From NCBI RefSeq assembly GCF_012044895.1, contig NZ_CP050695.1, positions 3,254,501 to 3,318,500 on the forward strand: a stretch of 64,000 nucleotides of DNA. The letters are read 5' to 3'. The DNA comes from Aquisalimonas sp. 2447. Its GTDB lineage: Bacteria; Pseudomonadota; Gammaproteobacteria; Nitrococcales; Aquisalimonadaceae. The position numbers and the translations under genes are program-made. Below the pieces are notes generated by a model, which made no database searches, was not told the origin of the DNA, and saw only the letters and a program-made list of their open reading frames with translations. Of the stretch, positions 39,950 through 52,617 are shown in pieces (positions within the stretch are counted from its first letter, which is position 1; each line of letters opens with the position of its first letter).

Positions 39950-40060
39950 GGTTTCGGGCGGGTGATCCGGTCACGGACCGTCTGCGGCCAGGACGGCCGC
40001 AGTCGAGCCTACATGGACGTATTCACGGCGTGTCCGTGACCGGATTACCCGCCCGAAACC
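39950..40060 (+). repeat. Family-B structured repeat, copy 3
   Basis: Arms of 29 bp (starting GGTTTCGGGCGGGT; ending ACCCGCCCGAAACC) pair with one imperfect position, again G opposite T at stem position 15. The core is nearly identical to copy 2, including the CTGCGGCC-AGGAC-GGCCGCAG hairpin. The inner arm GGTCACGGAC is matched by GTCCGTGACC, a compensated change relative to GGTCCCGGAC / GTCCGGGACC in copies 1 and 2. It is located after thyA. Confidence 0.85.
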
Positions 40061-40168
40061 CACTTGCAGGCCCGAGAGGTCCAGGGGGGCACGGCACACA
40101 GCCCCGTTGTTTATCTAGACGCGCGTCCGGATTCGTGCCCTGAAAAGACACTTCGGCATCCTTCACCG

Positions 40169-40280
40169 GGTGTCGATCGGGTACGCCGGTCATGGACACG
40201 CCGCAAGTACGTCCATGTAGGCTCGACTCCAGCCATCCATGGCTGGAGACGGTCCATGACCGGCGCACCCGATCGACACC
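40169..40280 (-). repeat. Family-B structured repeat, copy 4 (opposite orientation)
   Basis: Arms of 29 bp (GGTGTCGATCGGGT at the left, ACCCGATCGACACC at the right) have one imperfect position. Read in the orientation of the core it is again G.T at position 15. The inner arm is GGTCATGGAC / GTCCATGACC, another compensated pair. The internal hairpin is CTCCAGCCA-TGGA-TGGCTGGAG. It lies 108 bp from copy 3 and points the other way, 50 bp before folA. Confidence 0.85.
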
Positions 40281-40850: not shown

Positions 40851-40867
40851 GATACAATAACTATACA
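40851..40867 (+). promoter_or_regulatory. Candidate CarH/LitR-type operator before the MerR-photolyase operon
   Basis: GATACA (40851) and TATACA (40862) are spaced exactly 11 bp apart, with imperfect TACG boxes further left (40836, 40843). The AACTATACA segment is shared with the region upstream of folE. It lies 41 bp before the TTG start. Autoregulation by the MerR protein is the simplest reading. Confidence 0.45.
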
Positions 40868-40907: not shown

Positions 40908-41777
40908 TTGAGCAAGGGTCTCTATCCCATCCGCACCATCTCGGCCATGACCGGCGTCAACCCGGTAACGCTGCGAGCGTGGGAACGACGCTACGGGCTG
41001 ATTCGCCCCCAACGCACGCCCAAGGGGCACAGGCTCTACACCGAGCGGGACATCGACCGCATCAAGCAGATCCTCGTGCTCATGGAGCGCGGCATTCCCA
41101 TCAGCCAGGCCCGACAGGTGCTCGAGCAGGGCGAAGGCGGCGTGCAGACCGACGCCACAGCCGCCGCCGAACCGCATCAGGACGTCTGGAGCAACCACCT
41201 GGAGCGGATGAACACCGCCATCAGCGTCTTCGACGAACAGGCGCTGGACGACGTCTACGAAGAAGCACTGTCCCTGTTCCCGGCGAGTCAGGTGCAGCAC
41301 CACCTCCTGGAGCCCTTGTACCGGCGCCACGCCGCCCGCTCCGGCAGCGCCACCGGCGCCTTCACCTGTGCCTGGTTGCGCACGGTGCTGGGGGTTCGCT
41401 TCCGTCACAGAGTCCGGCGCGCCTCGGGCCCACGTCTGATGCTGGCAACACCCTGGGGGTGCCATGACGACGTCGCCCTCATGCTGCTGGCCCTGGAGGC
41501 CATGGACCAGGGCTACCGCCCCCTGGTGCTCTGTGGCGTCGCCGGTAACTCCCTGACCAGCGCACTGCAGGACAGCGGCGCGGAAGCGCTGCTGCTCTGG
41601 AGCAGTAGCGACGACAACCTGGCGATTCCCGACGCACTTGACGTGCCTGTGTTCGTCGCCGGCGACGGCCAGGCCCTGGACGCCGACTCGACGGCCACCA
41701 GCGTCACCGGTGACAGCCGCGAGATTATCGGTGCACTGAACAGCCACTACAGTACCCCCGGACATGCCACCGCATGA
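40908..41777 (+). CDS. MerR-type regulator of the CarH/LitR class (photolyase-linked)
   Basis: 289 residues. The N-terminal MerR winged helix (about 4-72: YPIRTISAMTGVNPVTLRAW, then ERRYGLI and GHRLYTERDIDRIK) is followed by a helical bundle (about 90-160) and a cobalamin-binding-like Rossmann domain (about 165-280). CarH/LitR proteins repress light-inducible genes. The hallmarks of adenosyl-B12 binding are weak: the bundle lacks the W-x9-E-H motif, and the lower-ligand region is WGCHDDV with only the His (about 186) kept. The TTG start lies 8 nt after AAGGAG. The stop overlaps the photolyase start as ATGA. Confidence 0.88.
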   Translation: MSKGLYPIRTISAMTGVNPVTLRAWERRYGLIRPQRTPKGHRLYTERDIDRIKQILVLMERGIPISQARQVLEQGEGGVQTDATAAAEPHQDVWSNHLERMNTAISVFDEQALDDVYEEALSLFPASQVQHHLLEPLYRRHAARSGSATGAFTCAWLRTVLGVRFRHRVRRASGPRLMLATPWGCHDDVALMLLALEAMDQGYRPLVLCGVAGNSLTSALQDSGAEALLLWSSSDDNLAIPDALDVPVFVAGDGQALDADSTATSVTGDSREIIGALNSHYSTPGHATA

Positions 41778-43210
41778 GCGGGGCGATCATGTGGTTCCGG
41801 CGTGACCTGCGTCTCGCCGACAACCCGGCACTGATCGCCGCCGCAACCGCCGGCCCGGTGCTCCCGGTCTACCTCCACGCCCCCGCCGAAGAGGGCAGCT
41901 GGGCACCCGGAGCGGCCAGCCGCTGGTGGCTCCACCACAGCCTCGCCAACCTGCGGGACGCACTGGCCGCCCACAACCTGCCACTGCTGGTGCTGCGCAC
42001 CGACGACAGCCTGACCACCCTGCGCGACCTGATCCGGCTCACCGGCGCGCGGCACGTGGCCTGGAATCGCCTCTACGAGCCCGCCGCCATCGCCCGGGAC
42101 CGGCACATCAAGCAGGCTCTGCGCGACGATGACGTGGACGTGACCAGCCACAACGGCGCCCTGCTCTTCGAGCCCTGGGAGATCCGCAAGCAGGACGGCG
42201 GTCATTACAAGGCGTTCACGCCCTTCTGGCGTGCCCTGCGCCGGACTGGCGCACCCCGGCCGCAGCCAGTGCCCGCCATGTCGGCGCCCGCCGAGATCCC
42301 CGCCGGCGAGAGTATCGACGCCCTGAACCTGCTGCCATCCATCGCCTGGGACCGCGGCTTTTACGACTACTGGCAGCCGGGAGAACAGGGGGCAATGGAC
42401 CGGCTGTCCCGTTTCCTCGATCAGCGCCTGCACGGTTACGACACCAACCGGGATTGGCCGGCCGTGGACGGCACCTCGGGGCTGTCGCCGCACCTGCATG
42501 CCGGTGATATCAGCCCGCGGCAAATCTACGCCGCCGTGGAGGAGCGCCTTGGCGACGGCAGCGCCCCCACGGACGATGCCGAAAGTTTTCTCAGCGAAAT
42601 CGGCTGGCGGGAGTTCGCCCATCACCTGCTGTTCCATTACCCGGACATGCCCGAGGATCCCCTGGACACGCGCTTCCGCGCCTTCCCGTGGCGCGAACAG
42701 CCGGACGAACCACTACTGGCCTGGCAGACAGGGCGCACCGGGATTCCCATTGTCGACGCCGGCATGCGCGAGCTCTGGGCCACCGGCTGGATGCACAACC
42801 GCCTGCGCATGGTGGTGGGGTCACTGCTGACCAAGAACCTGCGCATTCCCTGGCAGCGGGGCGAGGCGTGGTTCTGGGACACGCTGGTGGACGCCGACCT
42901 CGCCAGCAACGGTATGGGCTGGCAGTGGATCCAGGGCTGCGGCGCCGACGCCGCGCCGTATTTCCGCATCTTCAATCCGGTACGCCAGGGGGAACGCTTC
43001 GATCCCGAGGGTGACTACGTGCGGCGCTGGGTGCCGGAGCTGGCAGGGCTGCCGGCGAAGCACATTCACGCGCCCTGGCAGGCGCCGGCGGGGGAGCTCA
43101 ACCGCGCCGGGATTCGCCTCGGGCACGACTACCCGGAGCCGATCGTTGACCTGAAGGTCTCGCGGCAGCAGGCGCTGGAGGCGTACCAGGCGATCCGGCA
43201 GGGGCCGTAG
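41774..43210 (+). CDS. phrB: Deoxyribodipyrimidine photolyase (class I CPD)
   Basis: Repairs cyclobutane pyrimidine dimers with blue/UV-A light. It is 478 residues. The N-terminal alpha/beta antenna domain (about 1-130) opens MWFRRDLRLADNPAL. The FAD-binding helical domain (about 200-470) has TSGLSPHLHAGDISPRQ, SEIGWREFAHHLL, GWMHNRLRMVVGSLLTKNL and SNGMGWQWIQGCGADAAPYF. These are class I photolyase signatures. The antenna in this class is commonly a folate (MTHF), so the pterin/folate genes nearby may be functionally linked. It is coupled to the MerR gene by a 4-nt overlap. Confidence 0.93.
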   Translation: MSGAIMWFRRDLRLADNPALIAAATAGPVLPVYLHAPAEEGSWAPGAASRWWLHHSLANLRDALAAHNLPLLVLRTDDSLTTLRDLIRLTGARHVAWNRLYEPAAIARDRHIKQALRDDDVDVTSHNGALLFEPWEIRKQDGGHYKAFTPFWRALRRTGAPRPQPVPAMSAPAEIPAGESIDALNLLPSIAWDRGFYDYWQPGEQGAMDRLSRFLDQRLHGYDTNRDWPAVDGTSGLSPHLHAGDISPRQIYAAVEERLGDGSAPTDDAESFLSEIGWREFAHHLLFHYPDMPEDPLDTRFRAFPWREQPDEPLLAWQTGRTGIPIVDAGMRELWATGWMHNRLRMVVGSLLTKNLRIPWQRGEAWFWDTLVDADLASNGMGWQWIQGCGADAAPYFRIFNPVRQGERFDPEGDYVRRWVPELAGLPAKHIHAPWQAPAGELNRAGIRLGHDYPEPIVDLKVSRQQALEAYQAIRQGP

Positions 43211-51122: not shown

Positions 51123-51150
51123 TTTACATAAACTATACATTTGTTGTACA
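51123..51150 (+). promoter_or_regulatory. CarH/LitR-type operator (three 11-bp direct repeats) upstream of folE
   Basis: TTTACA (51123), TATACA (51134) and TGTACA (51145) are three TNTACA boxes with an exact 11-bp period, all in direct orientation. CarH-family repressors are known to bind tandem 11-bp direct repeats with a TNTACA core. The array lies 35 bp before the folE ATG and only 7 bp after the previous stop, so it probably overlaps the folE promoter. Confidence 0.6.
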
Positions 51151-51185
51151 AGATTCCCGACGCAGCGGACGGGCCGGAGAACCCC

Positions 51186-51743
51186 ATGAATCTCGACGAC
51201 ATGACCGATTCCTTTGACCGCATCATCCGCGCCGTGGGCGAGGATGTCTCGCGGGACGGTCTGCAGAAGACCCCGGCGCGGGCCGCCCAGGCTTTCGCCT
51301 ACCTCACCGAGGGCTACAACCAGAACCTGGAAGAACTGGTCAACGGCGCCATCTTCCCGTCGGACAACGACGAGATGGTCATCGTCCGGGACATCGAGTT
51401 CTACTCGCTGTGCGAGCACCACCTGCTGCCGTTCATCGGCAGCGCCAATGTGGCCTACATTCCCGATGGCAAGGTCATCGGCCTGTCCAAGATCGCCCGC
51501 ATCATCGACATGTTCGCCCGGCGCTTCCAGATCCAGGAGAACATGACCAAGGAGATCGCCGACGCCGTCATGAGCGTGACCAACGCCAAGGGCGTGGCCG
51601 TGAACCTGAACGCCCGCCACATGTGCATGATGATGCGCGGCGTCGGCAAGCAGAACTCCAGCATGACCACCTCGGTGATGCTGGGCACGTTCCGGGAATC
51701 GCAATCCACCCGCAACGAGTTCCTGCAGCTCATCAAGAGCTAG
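51186..51743 (+). CDS. folE: GTP cyclohydrolase I FolE
   Basis: Converts GTP to 7,8-dihydroneopterin triphosphate, the entry to folate and monapterin. It is 185 residues. Zinc ligands are Cys76 and His79 in [10 protein letters not shown] and Cys147 in [25 protein letters not shown] is the substrate loop. The ATG at 51186 has GGAGA 5 nt upstream; the open frame extends 15 codons into the operator array and is not supported. It is first in a folE-folX-DUF3429 unit. The operator array in front suggests control by a CarH/LitR-like repressor. Confidence 0.95.
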
Positions 51744-51751
51744 GAGAAGCC

Positions 51752-52156
51752 ATGAGTGTGGCCGAAGAGGTGCTGGAGCCGGGTCCGGCCCGGGTCGAGA
51801 GTTCGCGCATCCGCATCAAGAACCTGCGCCTGCGCACCTTCGTGGGGCTGAACGAGGAAGAGCAGCAGAAACGCCAGGACGTGGTGATCAACATCACCAT
51901 CGATTACGACGCCCTGCGCGCGGCCGCCTCCGATTCCCCGGACGACGCGCTGAACTACCGTACCATCACCAAACAGGTGATCGAGCTGGTGGAGGACAAC
52001 CGCTTCCTGCTGCTGGAGAAACTGGTACATGACGTCATCAAGCTGGTGCTCGGACACCAGGCCGTGGACAGCGTCCAGGTGGAAGTGGACAAGCCCCACG
52101 CGCTGCGCTTCGCCGATTCCGTCTCGCTGACCATGGCCGCCAGCCGCCGGGAATGA
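51752..52156 (+). CDS. folX: Dihydroneopterin triphosphate 2'-epimerase FolX
   Basis: 134 residues. It matches E. coli FolX along its length: RIKNLRLRTFVGLNEEEQQK, QDVVINITIDYD, DALNYRTITKQVIELVEDN, RFLLLEKLVHDVI and LRFADSVSLTMA. The RIKNLRLRTF opening separates it from FolB aldolases. FolX epimerises dihydroneopterin triphosphate to the monapterin form, leading to tetrahydromonapterin, the usual cofactor of phenylalanine hydroxylase in proteobacteria. No folM reductase gene is adjacent. It starts 8 bp after folE with a GGAGAAG site, and its stop overlaps the next start as ATGA. Confidence 0.9.
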   Translation: MSVAEEVLEPGPARVESSRIRIKNLRLRTFVGLNEEEQQKRQDVVINITIDYDALRAAASDSPDDALNYRTITKQVIELVEDNRFLLLEKLVHDVIKLVLGHQAVDSVQVEVDKPHALRFADSVSLTMAASRRE

Positions 52157-52617
52157 CGTTGAGCGAACGCGCCGGCGACCATCTGGACTCCCGCACCCGG
52201 CGAATTGCCACCGGTCTCGGCCTGGCCGGTGCACTGCCGTTCGTTGCCCTGGCCATGCTGCTCTGGTGGCAGAGCGACGGCAACCACGCGCTGGCACTCG
52301 CCGCACTCACCGGTTACGGCGCCGTCATCCTCTCCTTTCTTGGTGGCATCCACTGGGGGCTGGCGCTGCGCGACCCGCAGGGCGATGGACGCATGTTTGC
52401 CATCAGCGTGGTGCCGTCGCTGCTGGGCTGGGTCGCGGTCCTGCTGCCGGCGATCCCCGGGCTGGCCCTGCTGGCCGCCGGCTTTGTCGGGCAGATGGCG
52501 CTGGACTGGCGCCTGGCCCTCGCCCCCTGGTTCGGGTGGCTGCGCATGCTGCTGACCGCCATCGTCGTGGTCAGCCTGCTCACCGGCGTGGCCGCACTGA
52601 CAGTGCCCTCCGTCTGA
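52153..52617 (+). CDS. DUF3429 integral membrane protein
   Basis: 154 residues with about four membrane helices (about 21-40, 46-66, 81-105 and 120-148). The FLGGIHWGLALRD motif between helices 2 and 3 is diagnostic for DUF3429. The function of the family is unknown. The gene is coupled to folX by a 4-nt overlap, so it is expected to share the folE operator. It therefore becomes a candidate member of a light-responsive regulon. Confidence 0.85.
   Translation: MTLSERAGDHLDSRTRRIATGLGLAGALPFVALAMLLWWQSDGNHALALAALTGYGAVILSFLGGIHWGLALRDPQGDGRMFAISVVPSLLGWVAVLLPAIPGLALLAAGFVGQMALDWRLALAPWFGWLRMLLTAIVVVSLLTGVAALTVPSV

Follow-up and report, generated by a model that had tools for sequence, protein, structure and literature searches.

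In Pseudomonas putida, the genes folE, phrB, ufaM and cryB are light-induced via LitR homologues termed PplR (PMC9758184), which bears out the co-regulation of folE and phrB by LitR-type proteins that an earlier note on the present DNA had mentioned. Class II LitR proteins do not need B12; a short LOV protein serves as anti-repressor, and PmSB-LOV binds PmlR2 in P. mendocina (PMC9758184). The Pseudomonas LitR sites read T(G/A)TACA-N12-TGTA(C/T)A, corresponding to a spacing of 18 bp (PMC9758184). Here we analyze by computation a three-box array upstream of folE in the genome of a halophilic Aquisalimonas. We consider it very likely that the array is the operator of a B12-independent, LitR-type MerR protein (40908-41777), with folE-folX-DUF3429 repressed in the dark, relieved by blue light through a LOV protein, and induced together with a wider regulon.

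Results

A phased three-box array precedes the folE operon

In the window, i.e. the whole 64-kb stretch of DNA analyzed, the hexamers TTTACA, TATACA and TGTACA start at 51123, 51134 and 51145, at a spacing of exactly 11 bp, and are followed by a putative three-gene operon.

51123..51150, + strand: TTTACA-N5-TATACA-N5-TGTACA, candidate operator with three boxes (direct read, genome scan, shuffles, conservation)
51186..51743, + strand: folE, GTP cyclohydrolase I, the sole match in the genome with the query used
51752..52156, + strand: folX, dihydroneopterin triphosphate 2'-epimerase (NF008418, 179 bits; cut-off 152)
52153..52617, + strand: gene for a DUF3429 membrane protein, third in the putative operon, overlapping the folX end

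The pattern TNTACA-N5-TNTACA-N5-TNTACA with at most one mismatch has a single match in the window and none in 100 dinucleotide-preserving shuffles, so that the box positions and the 11-bp phase are as the earlier note claimed. The note also placed the boxes within 35 bp of the folE start; the close upstream position stands, the exact figure does not, as the last box ends 36 bp 5' of the ATG at 51186. A genome scan for the triple, which the note had proposed, returned one exact match in 3.97 Mb, the one at folE, and the reversed triple gave no exact match genome-wide. Exact TNTACA-N5-TNTACA pairs are found at 5 loci in the genome (0 for the reversed control), and TRTACA-N5-TRTACA with at most one mismatch yields 17 forward and 14 reverse matches compared with 2 and 1 for the control. 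The relaxed pair TACA-N5-TRTACA marks merR and folE only in the window (3 matches, 0 expected).

Given that FolX is encoded in the operon, its product may be monapterin as well as folate. Since there is a sole folE match in the genome, full repression in the dark is unlikely, and we expect a modest light effect; light raises the level of P. mendocina folE by ∼1.6-3.3-fold only (PMC9758184). The congener G003 (MerR gene present, nominal completeness 100%) gave no FolE match in our search and may thus rely on another GTP cyclohydrolase.

Phased boxes accompany merR across relatives

The earlier note had pointed to a merR-photolyase locus with two 11-bp-spaced boxes of its own, and we find GATACA-N5-TATACA in front of this operon.

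40851..40867, + strand: GATACA-N5-TATACA, two-box candidate operator of merR-phr (pattern scans; kept in relatives)
40908..41777, + strand: merR, starting with TTG, gene for a 289-aa repressor of the LitR/CarH family that has the CarH fold without the cobalamin ligands
41774..43210, + strand: phr, CPD photolyase nearest to the class III PhrA of Agrobacterium (4u63)

In the merR promoter, GATACA-N5-TRTACA is nearly invariant across the family, and this is the most strongly conserved pair. The regulon model of the earlier note depended on conservation of the array before folE orthologues, and a phased pair indeed lies within 150 bp upstream of folE in 17 of 18 relatives with MerR and in 0 of 12 relatives without it (best pair in 150 bp, threshold at least 10 of 12 positions). 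The Fisher p value of 1.5e-7 ignores kinship and, because 11 of the 12 MerR-free controls come from one genus, overstates independence. All three boxes are kept upstream of folE in G000, G002 and G004, with divergent spacers and flanks. Over 59 genomes, the exact pair is present in 24 of 26 with MerR compared with 6 of 33 without.

A scan with free gaps (0-30) in the family found N5 at no fewer than 40 places among the matches listed, which span most genomes of the family, other gaps averaging 1.7, and at 53 merR loci from named genomes a start-to-start distance of 11 bp dominates (38, versus 0-9 for other distances). N12 (18-bp) sites numbered 0 among the matches listed for the family, and we thus rejected a Pseudomonas-type TRTACA-N12-TGTAYA operator there. 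The same scan of a Pseudomonas genome returned five N12 places and one N5; operator spacing is therefore clade-dependent. Both 11-bp and 18-bp spacings are seen in Halomonadaceae, the latter in some.

A few inverted N5 pairs (TATACA-N5-TGTATA) are also present. We thus dropped a strict direct-repeat orientation and limit ourselves to the safe claim that the predicted operators consist of near-palindromic boxes in 11-bp phase. Such pairs, the near-palindromic TGTACA, which could suit other dimeric factors, and the sites found in some MerR-free genomes would also fit boxes bound by another regulator, with the merR gene a mere bystander. We regard this as quite unlikely, as exact pairs follow MerR presence over the 59 genomes, the best-conserved pair is in the MerR gene's own promoter, and the genome contains a single full-length MerR homologue.

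The MerR protein keeps the CarH fold and has lost the cobalamin ligands

The merR product (P0001) has an N-terminal helix-turn-helix match (PF13411) and aligns with CarH along its whole length. Its AlphaFold model (mean pLDDT is 83.8) returns CarH structures as top Foldseek matches (E 1e-14), and the CBD alone compares with CarH at a TM score of up to 0.78 (r.m.s.d. is ∼3.4 Å). The cobalamin-ligand histidine is replaced (by Asp, Asn, Cys, Ile, Thr or Ala) in all 18 aligned MerR relatives, nearly all of these 18 proteins also lack the W-x9-EH motif, and no B12-binding domain passes in a Pfam scan of the product. The protein has the broad LitR/CarH fold and, judged by sequence, the 11-bp TnnACA operator at its own and its target promoters, lacks the His and W-x9-EH features of CarH, and shows the B12-less domain and the predicted regulon of class II.

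A CarH-type operator, bound by a repressor that senses light itself through adenosylcobalamin, would account for the array geometry, which matches the CarH consensus of tandem direct repeats nnnnTnnACAn spaced at 11 bp (PMC9304148), and for the MerR fold and full-length sequence match with CarH. Sensing of this kind was rejected on the loss of the cobalamin ligands, and class II relatives function without B12 according to the literature, which makes the CarH reading very improbable. Of the CarH/LitR-type operator proposed in the earlier note, the 11-bp TnnACA geometry survives; the protein itself is devoid of the B12-ligand residues of CarH. With the CarH fold retained and the ligand histidine gone, MerR 40908-41777 is most plausibly a class II-like LitR that works independently of B12. 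Lacking the B12-ligand residues, it would have to leave light sensing to another protein, plausibly a short LOV.

The phr product scores 489 bits with 4u63 and 312 bits with the E. coli class I enzyme 1dnp when compared with the PDB, and its closest match suggests a class III CPD photolyase (PhrA-like). These enzymes form the sister group of plant cryptochromes. The earlier note had argued for a folate antenna on the basis of class I; the class does not hold, the folate rationale does. Agrobacterium PhrA holds MTHF as antenna (PMC3204975), and folate supply for photorepair would therefore be coherent with a PhrA-like enzyme. Just 5' of the merR operon, the thyA/folA gap (window 39950-40270) harbors a long imperfect inverted repeat (around TACATGGACGTA ... 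TACGTCCATGTA).

Boxes and predicted promoter elements overlap

A probable folE promoter can be placed on the array.

51123..51152, + strand: probable folE promoter, overlapping the array, with TTTACA (-35-like), 18 bp and TACAAG (-10-like), inferred from sequence

A repressor on the boxes would cover both the -35-like and the -10-like element. At the merR-phr operator, TGATACAAT looks like an extended -10. A strict sigma-70 motif scan reported no promoter at folE or at merR. The likeness of TTTACA and TACAAG to -35 and -10 elements could also mean an ordinary AT-rich promoter that is array-like by chance, a reading with next to no probability in view of the absence of the array from shuffles, its single occurrence in the genome, the 11-bp phase kept exactly though spacers diverge, and the comparative data, which contradict it.

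The predicted regulon recurs in relatives

Besides merR-phr and folE-folX-DUF3429, phased pairs in the genome precede cryB/exonuclease, FAD-oxidase-DUF1365-ufaM, and genes for a DCC1-like and a chalcone-isomerase-like protein. The cryB-type target encodes a PF04244 FeS-type photolyase (best PDB match PhrB/CryB) and is divergent from the exonuclease gene; the FAD amine oxidase gene is followed by genes for DUF1365, the CFA-synthase-like UfaM and an MFS protein.

We collected 66 distinct exact sites in the fetched loci of genomes with MerR. Forty-five precede genes that recur, almost all belonging to photoprotection families, with folE accounting for 12 sites, pyp for 8, rudS for 8, the FAD oxidase for 7, cryB for 4 and a second CFA synthase for 3. 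The list of target genes was partly drawn up after the sites had been inspected, and the evidence therefore lies in recurrence across genomes and not in a percentage. The genes also cluster: merR, phr and folE adjoin in Ectothiorhodospira haloalkaliphila and E. mobilis, the FAD oxidase gene is part of the Ectothiorhodospira cluster, too, and merR, cryB, phr and folE lie together in Thioalkalivibrio sulfidiphilus. The same operator precedes rudS (2-thiouracil desulfurase + DUF1722), which functions in tRNA s4U de-modification, in eight genomes (L095, L097-L102, L305; sites 1501 or 2024). A Pseudomonas LitR operon contains rudS as well (PMC11417400). Judged by these gene families, the predicted regulon is the LitR regulon as known from Pseudomonas (phrB, ufaM, folE, cryB).

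Boxes were also seen in other surroundings. An exact TGTACA-N5-TATACA at genome position 3908745 (L067/L121) separates ubiG from a cbiD-like gene (cobalamin synthesis), and TATACAAT at this place may be the -10 of ubiG. Two box pairs at 892973 and 893324 (L062) fall in a region devoid of protein genes, flanked by cydB and by a glycine-riboswitch-like leader, which precedes a D-amino-acid-dehydrogenase-like gene. The repeated element TGTACAGYTNCTGTATCGATATTG, found at 1149660 and 1389052 (L069, L072), one copy of which precedes an arsenic-type operon, is apparently something other than a LitR-type operator.

Short LOV proteins and photoactive yellow protein

The genome encodes two short LOV proteins, which are candidate anti-repressors of MerR.

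Genome 955753: short LOV, 151 aa, with an SRPBCC gene in front of it (L120:5250-6209, genome 955249-956208)
Genome 1692642: short LOV, PpSB-type, 141 aa

The PpSB type (at least 62% identity) is present in 17 of 26 genomes with MerR and in 0 of 33 without. Nine genomes with MerR are devoid of it; it is therefore not the universal sensor, and we dropped a strict one-to-one coupling of LOV and MerR. Orthologues of the SRPBCC-linked LOV (52-59% identity) also occur in small MerR-free genomes (f4 g9), where they must therefore have a different partner.

Like the short LOV proteins, photoactive yellow protein (PYP) is a small PAS protein that responds to blue light and is effector-less. An exact pair is located 65-81 bp before pyp in eight genomes (G019, G025, G033, G035, G043, G034, G011 and the Aquisalimonas MAG G004, a congener), the pyp counts being conditional on the presence of an operator site.

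L295:2099, L296:2028, L297:2075, L302:1999, L103/L304, L107/L311, L088/L275 and L260:2000: pyp-linked sites, exact 11-bp pair

The pyp products are 73-100% identical among genomes and score >260 bits with photoactive yellow protein from the PDB. Eight genomes from four genera have pyp behind an exact operator of LitR type, and LitR probably controls pyp in this clade. It is unlikely that PYP in turn acts as a light-dependent anti-repressor partner of LitR, chiefly in Halorhodospira-like genomes that have LitR and no PpSB-type LOV. Two genomes hold both an operator-preceded pyp and a short LOV, and PYP is thus no simple LOV replacement. An anti-repressor role, if true, would give PYP its long-sought signaling partner; a 2025 review of PYP operons, in which neither MerR nor LitR is named, presents the partners of PYP as a gap in knowledge (PMC12826048). 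Papers naming both PYP and LitR/MerR appear, from their titles and abstracts, not to concern such a link.

Discussion

We infer that in the dark MerR would sit on the 11-bp-phased TNTACA boxes over the folE promoter and keep expression of folE-folX-DUF3429 low. Upon blue light, one of the short LOV proteins (955753 or 1692642) would bind MerR and lift repression, as PmSB-LOV does with PmlR2, and induction of folE would coincide with that of merR-phr, of cryB, which encodes the FeS-BCP photolyase, and of the FAD-oxidase-DUF1365-ufaM operon. The presumed benefit is pterin or folate for photolyase antennae and possibly, via FolX, tetrahydromonapterin.

Such a system would mean that the B12-independent light response via LitR, described in Pseudomonas, is also present in halophilic bacteria of the Ectothiorhodospira type. 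It would link pterin supply with photorepair and bring pyp as well as rudS under this operator, so that a single light response appears to connect light sensing with the repair of DNA and the supply of pterins. Operator spacing has changed between clades (11 versus 18 bp) and the regulon has stayed, which makes this a tractable case of repressor-operator co-evolution; the predicted regulon is compact and could be checked by a few gel shifts.

Among described systems, MlrA/BluR from E. coli is related in that no NCBIfam full-length family model scores better than MlrA with our MerR protein, but its 84 bits are far under the 417-bit cut-off, and the regulon differs. CarH from Thermus thermophilus, Bacillus megaterium and Myxococcales shares the overall fold and three 11-bp TnnACA repeats overlapping the -35 element, whereas it binds AdoCbl, senses light and controls carotenoid genes (PMC9304148); MerR here is without cobalamin ligands. 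Pseudomonas class II LitR (P. putida PplR1-3; P. mendocina PmlR1/PmlR2) has in common with the present system a MerR protein with a CarH-like, B12-less C terminus, a regulon of merR, phrB, ufaM, folE, cryB and a FAD oxidoreductase gene, a short LOV in the genome and the box core TRTACA. We treat our system as a variant that would function in the manner of class II LitR and not as an ordinary member, because no N12 operator appears among the matches listed for the family. Compared with the Pseudomonas LitR system, MerR is ∼36% identical to the homologue found (L222), folE is not linked to the LOV gene, the boxes are 11 bp apart in the Aquisalimonas family instead of 18 bp (N12), and relatives of Aquisalimonas carry the 11-bp operator before rudS and pyp.
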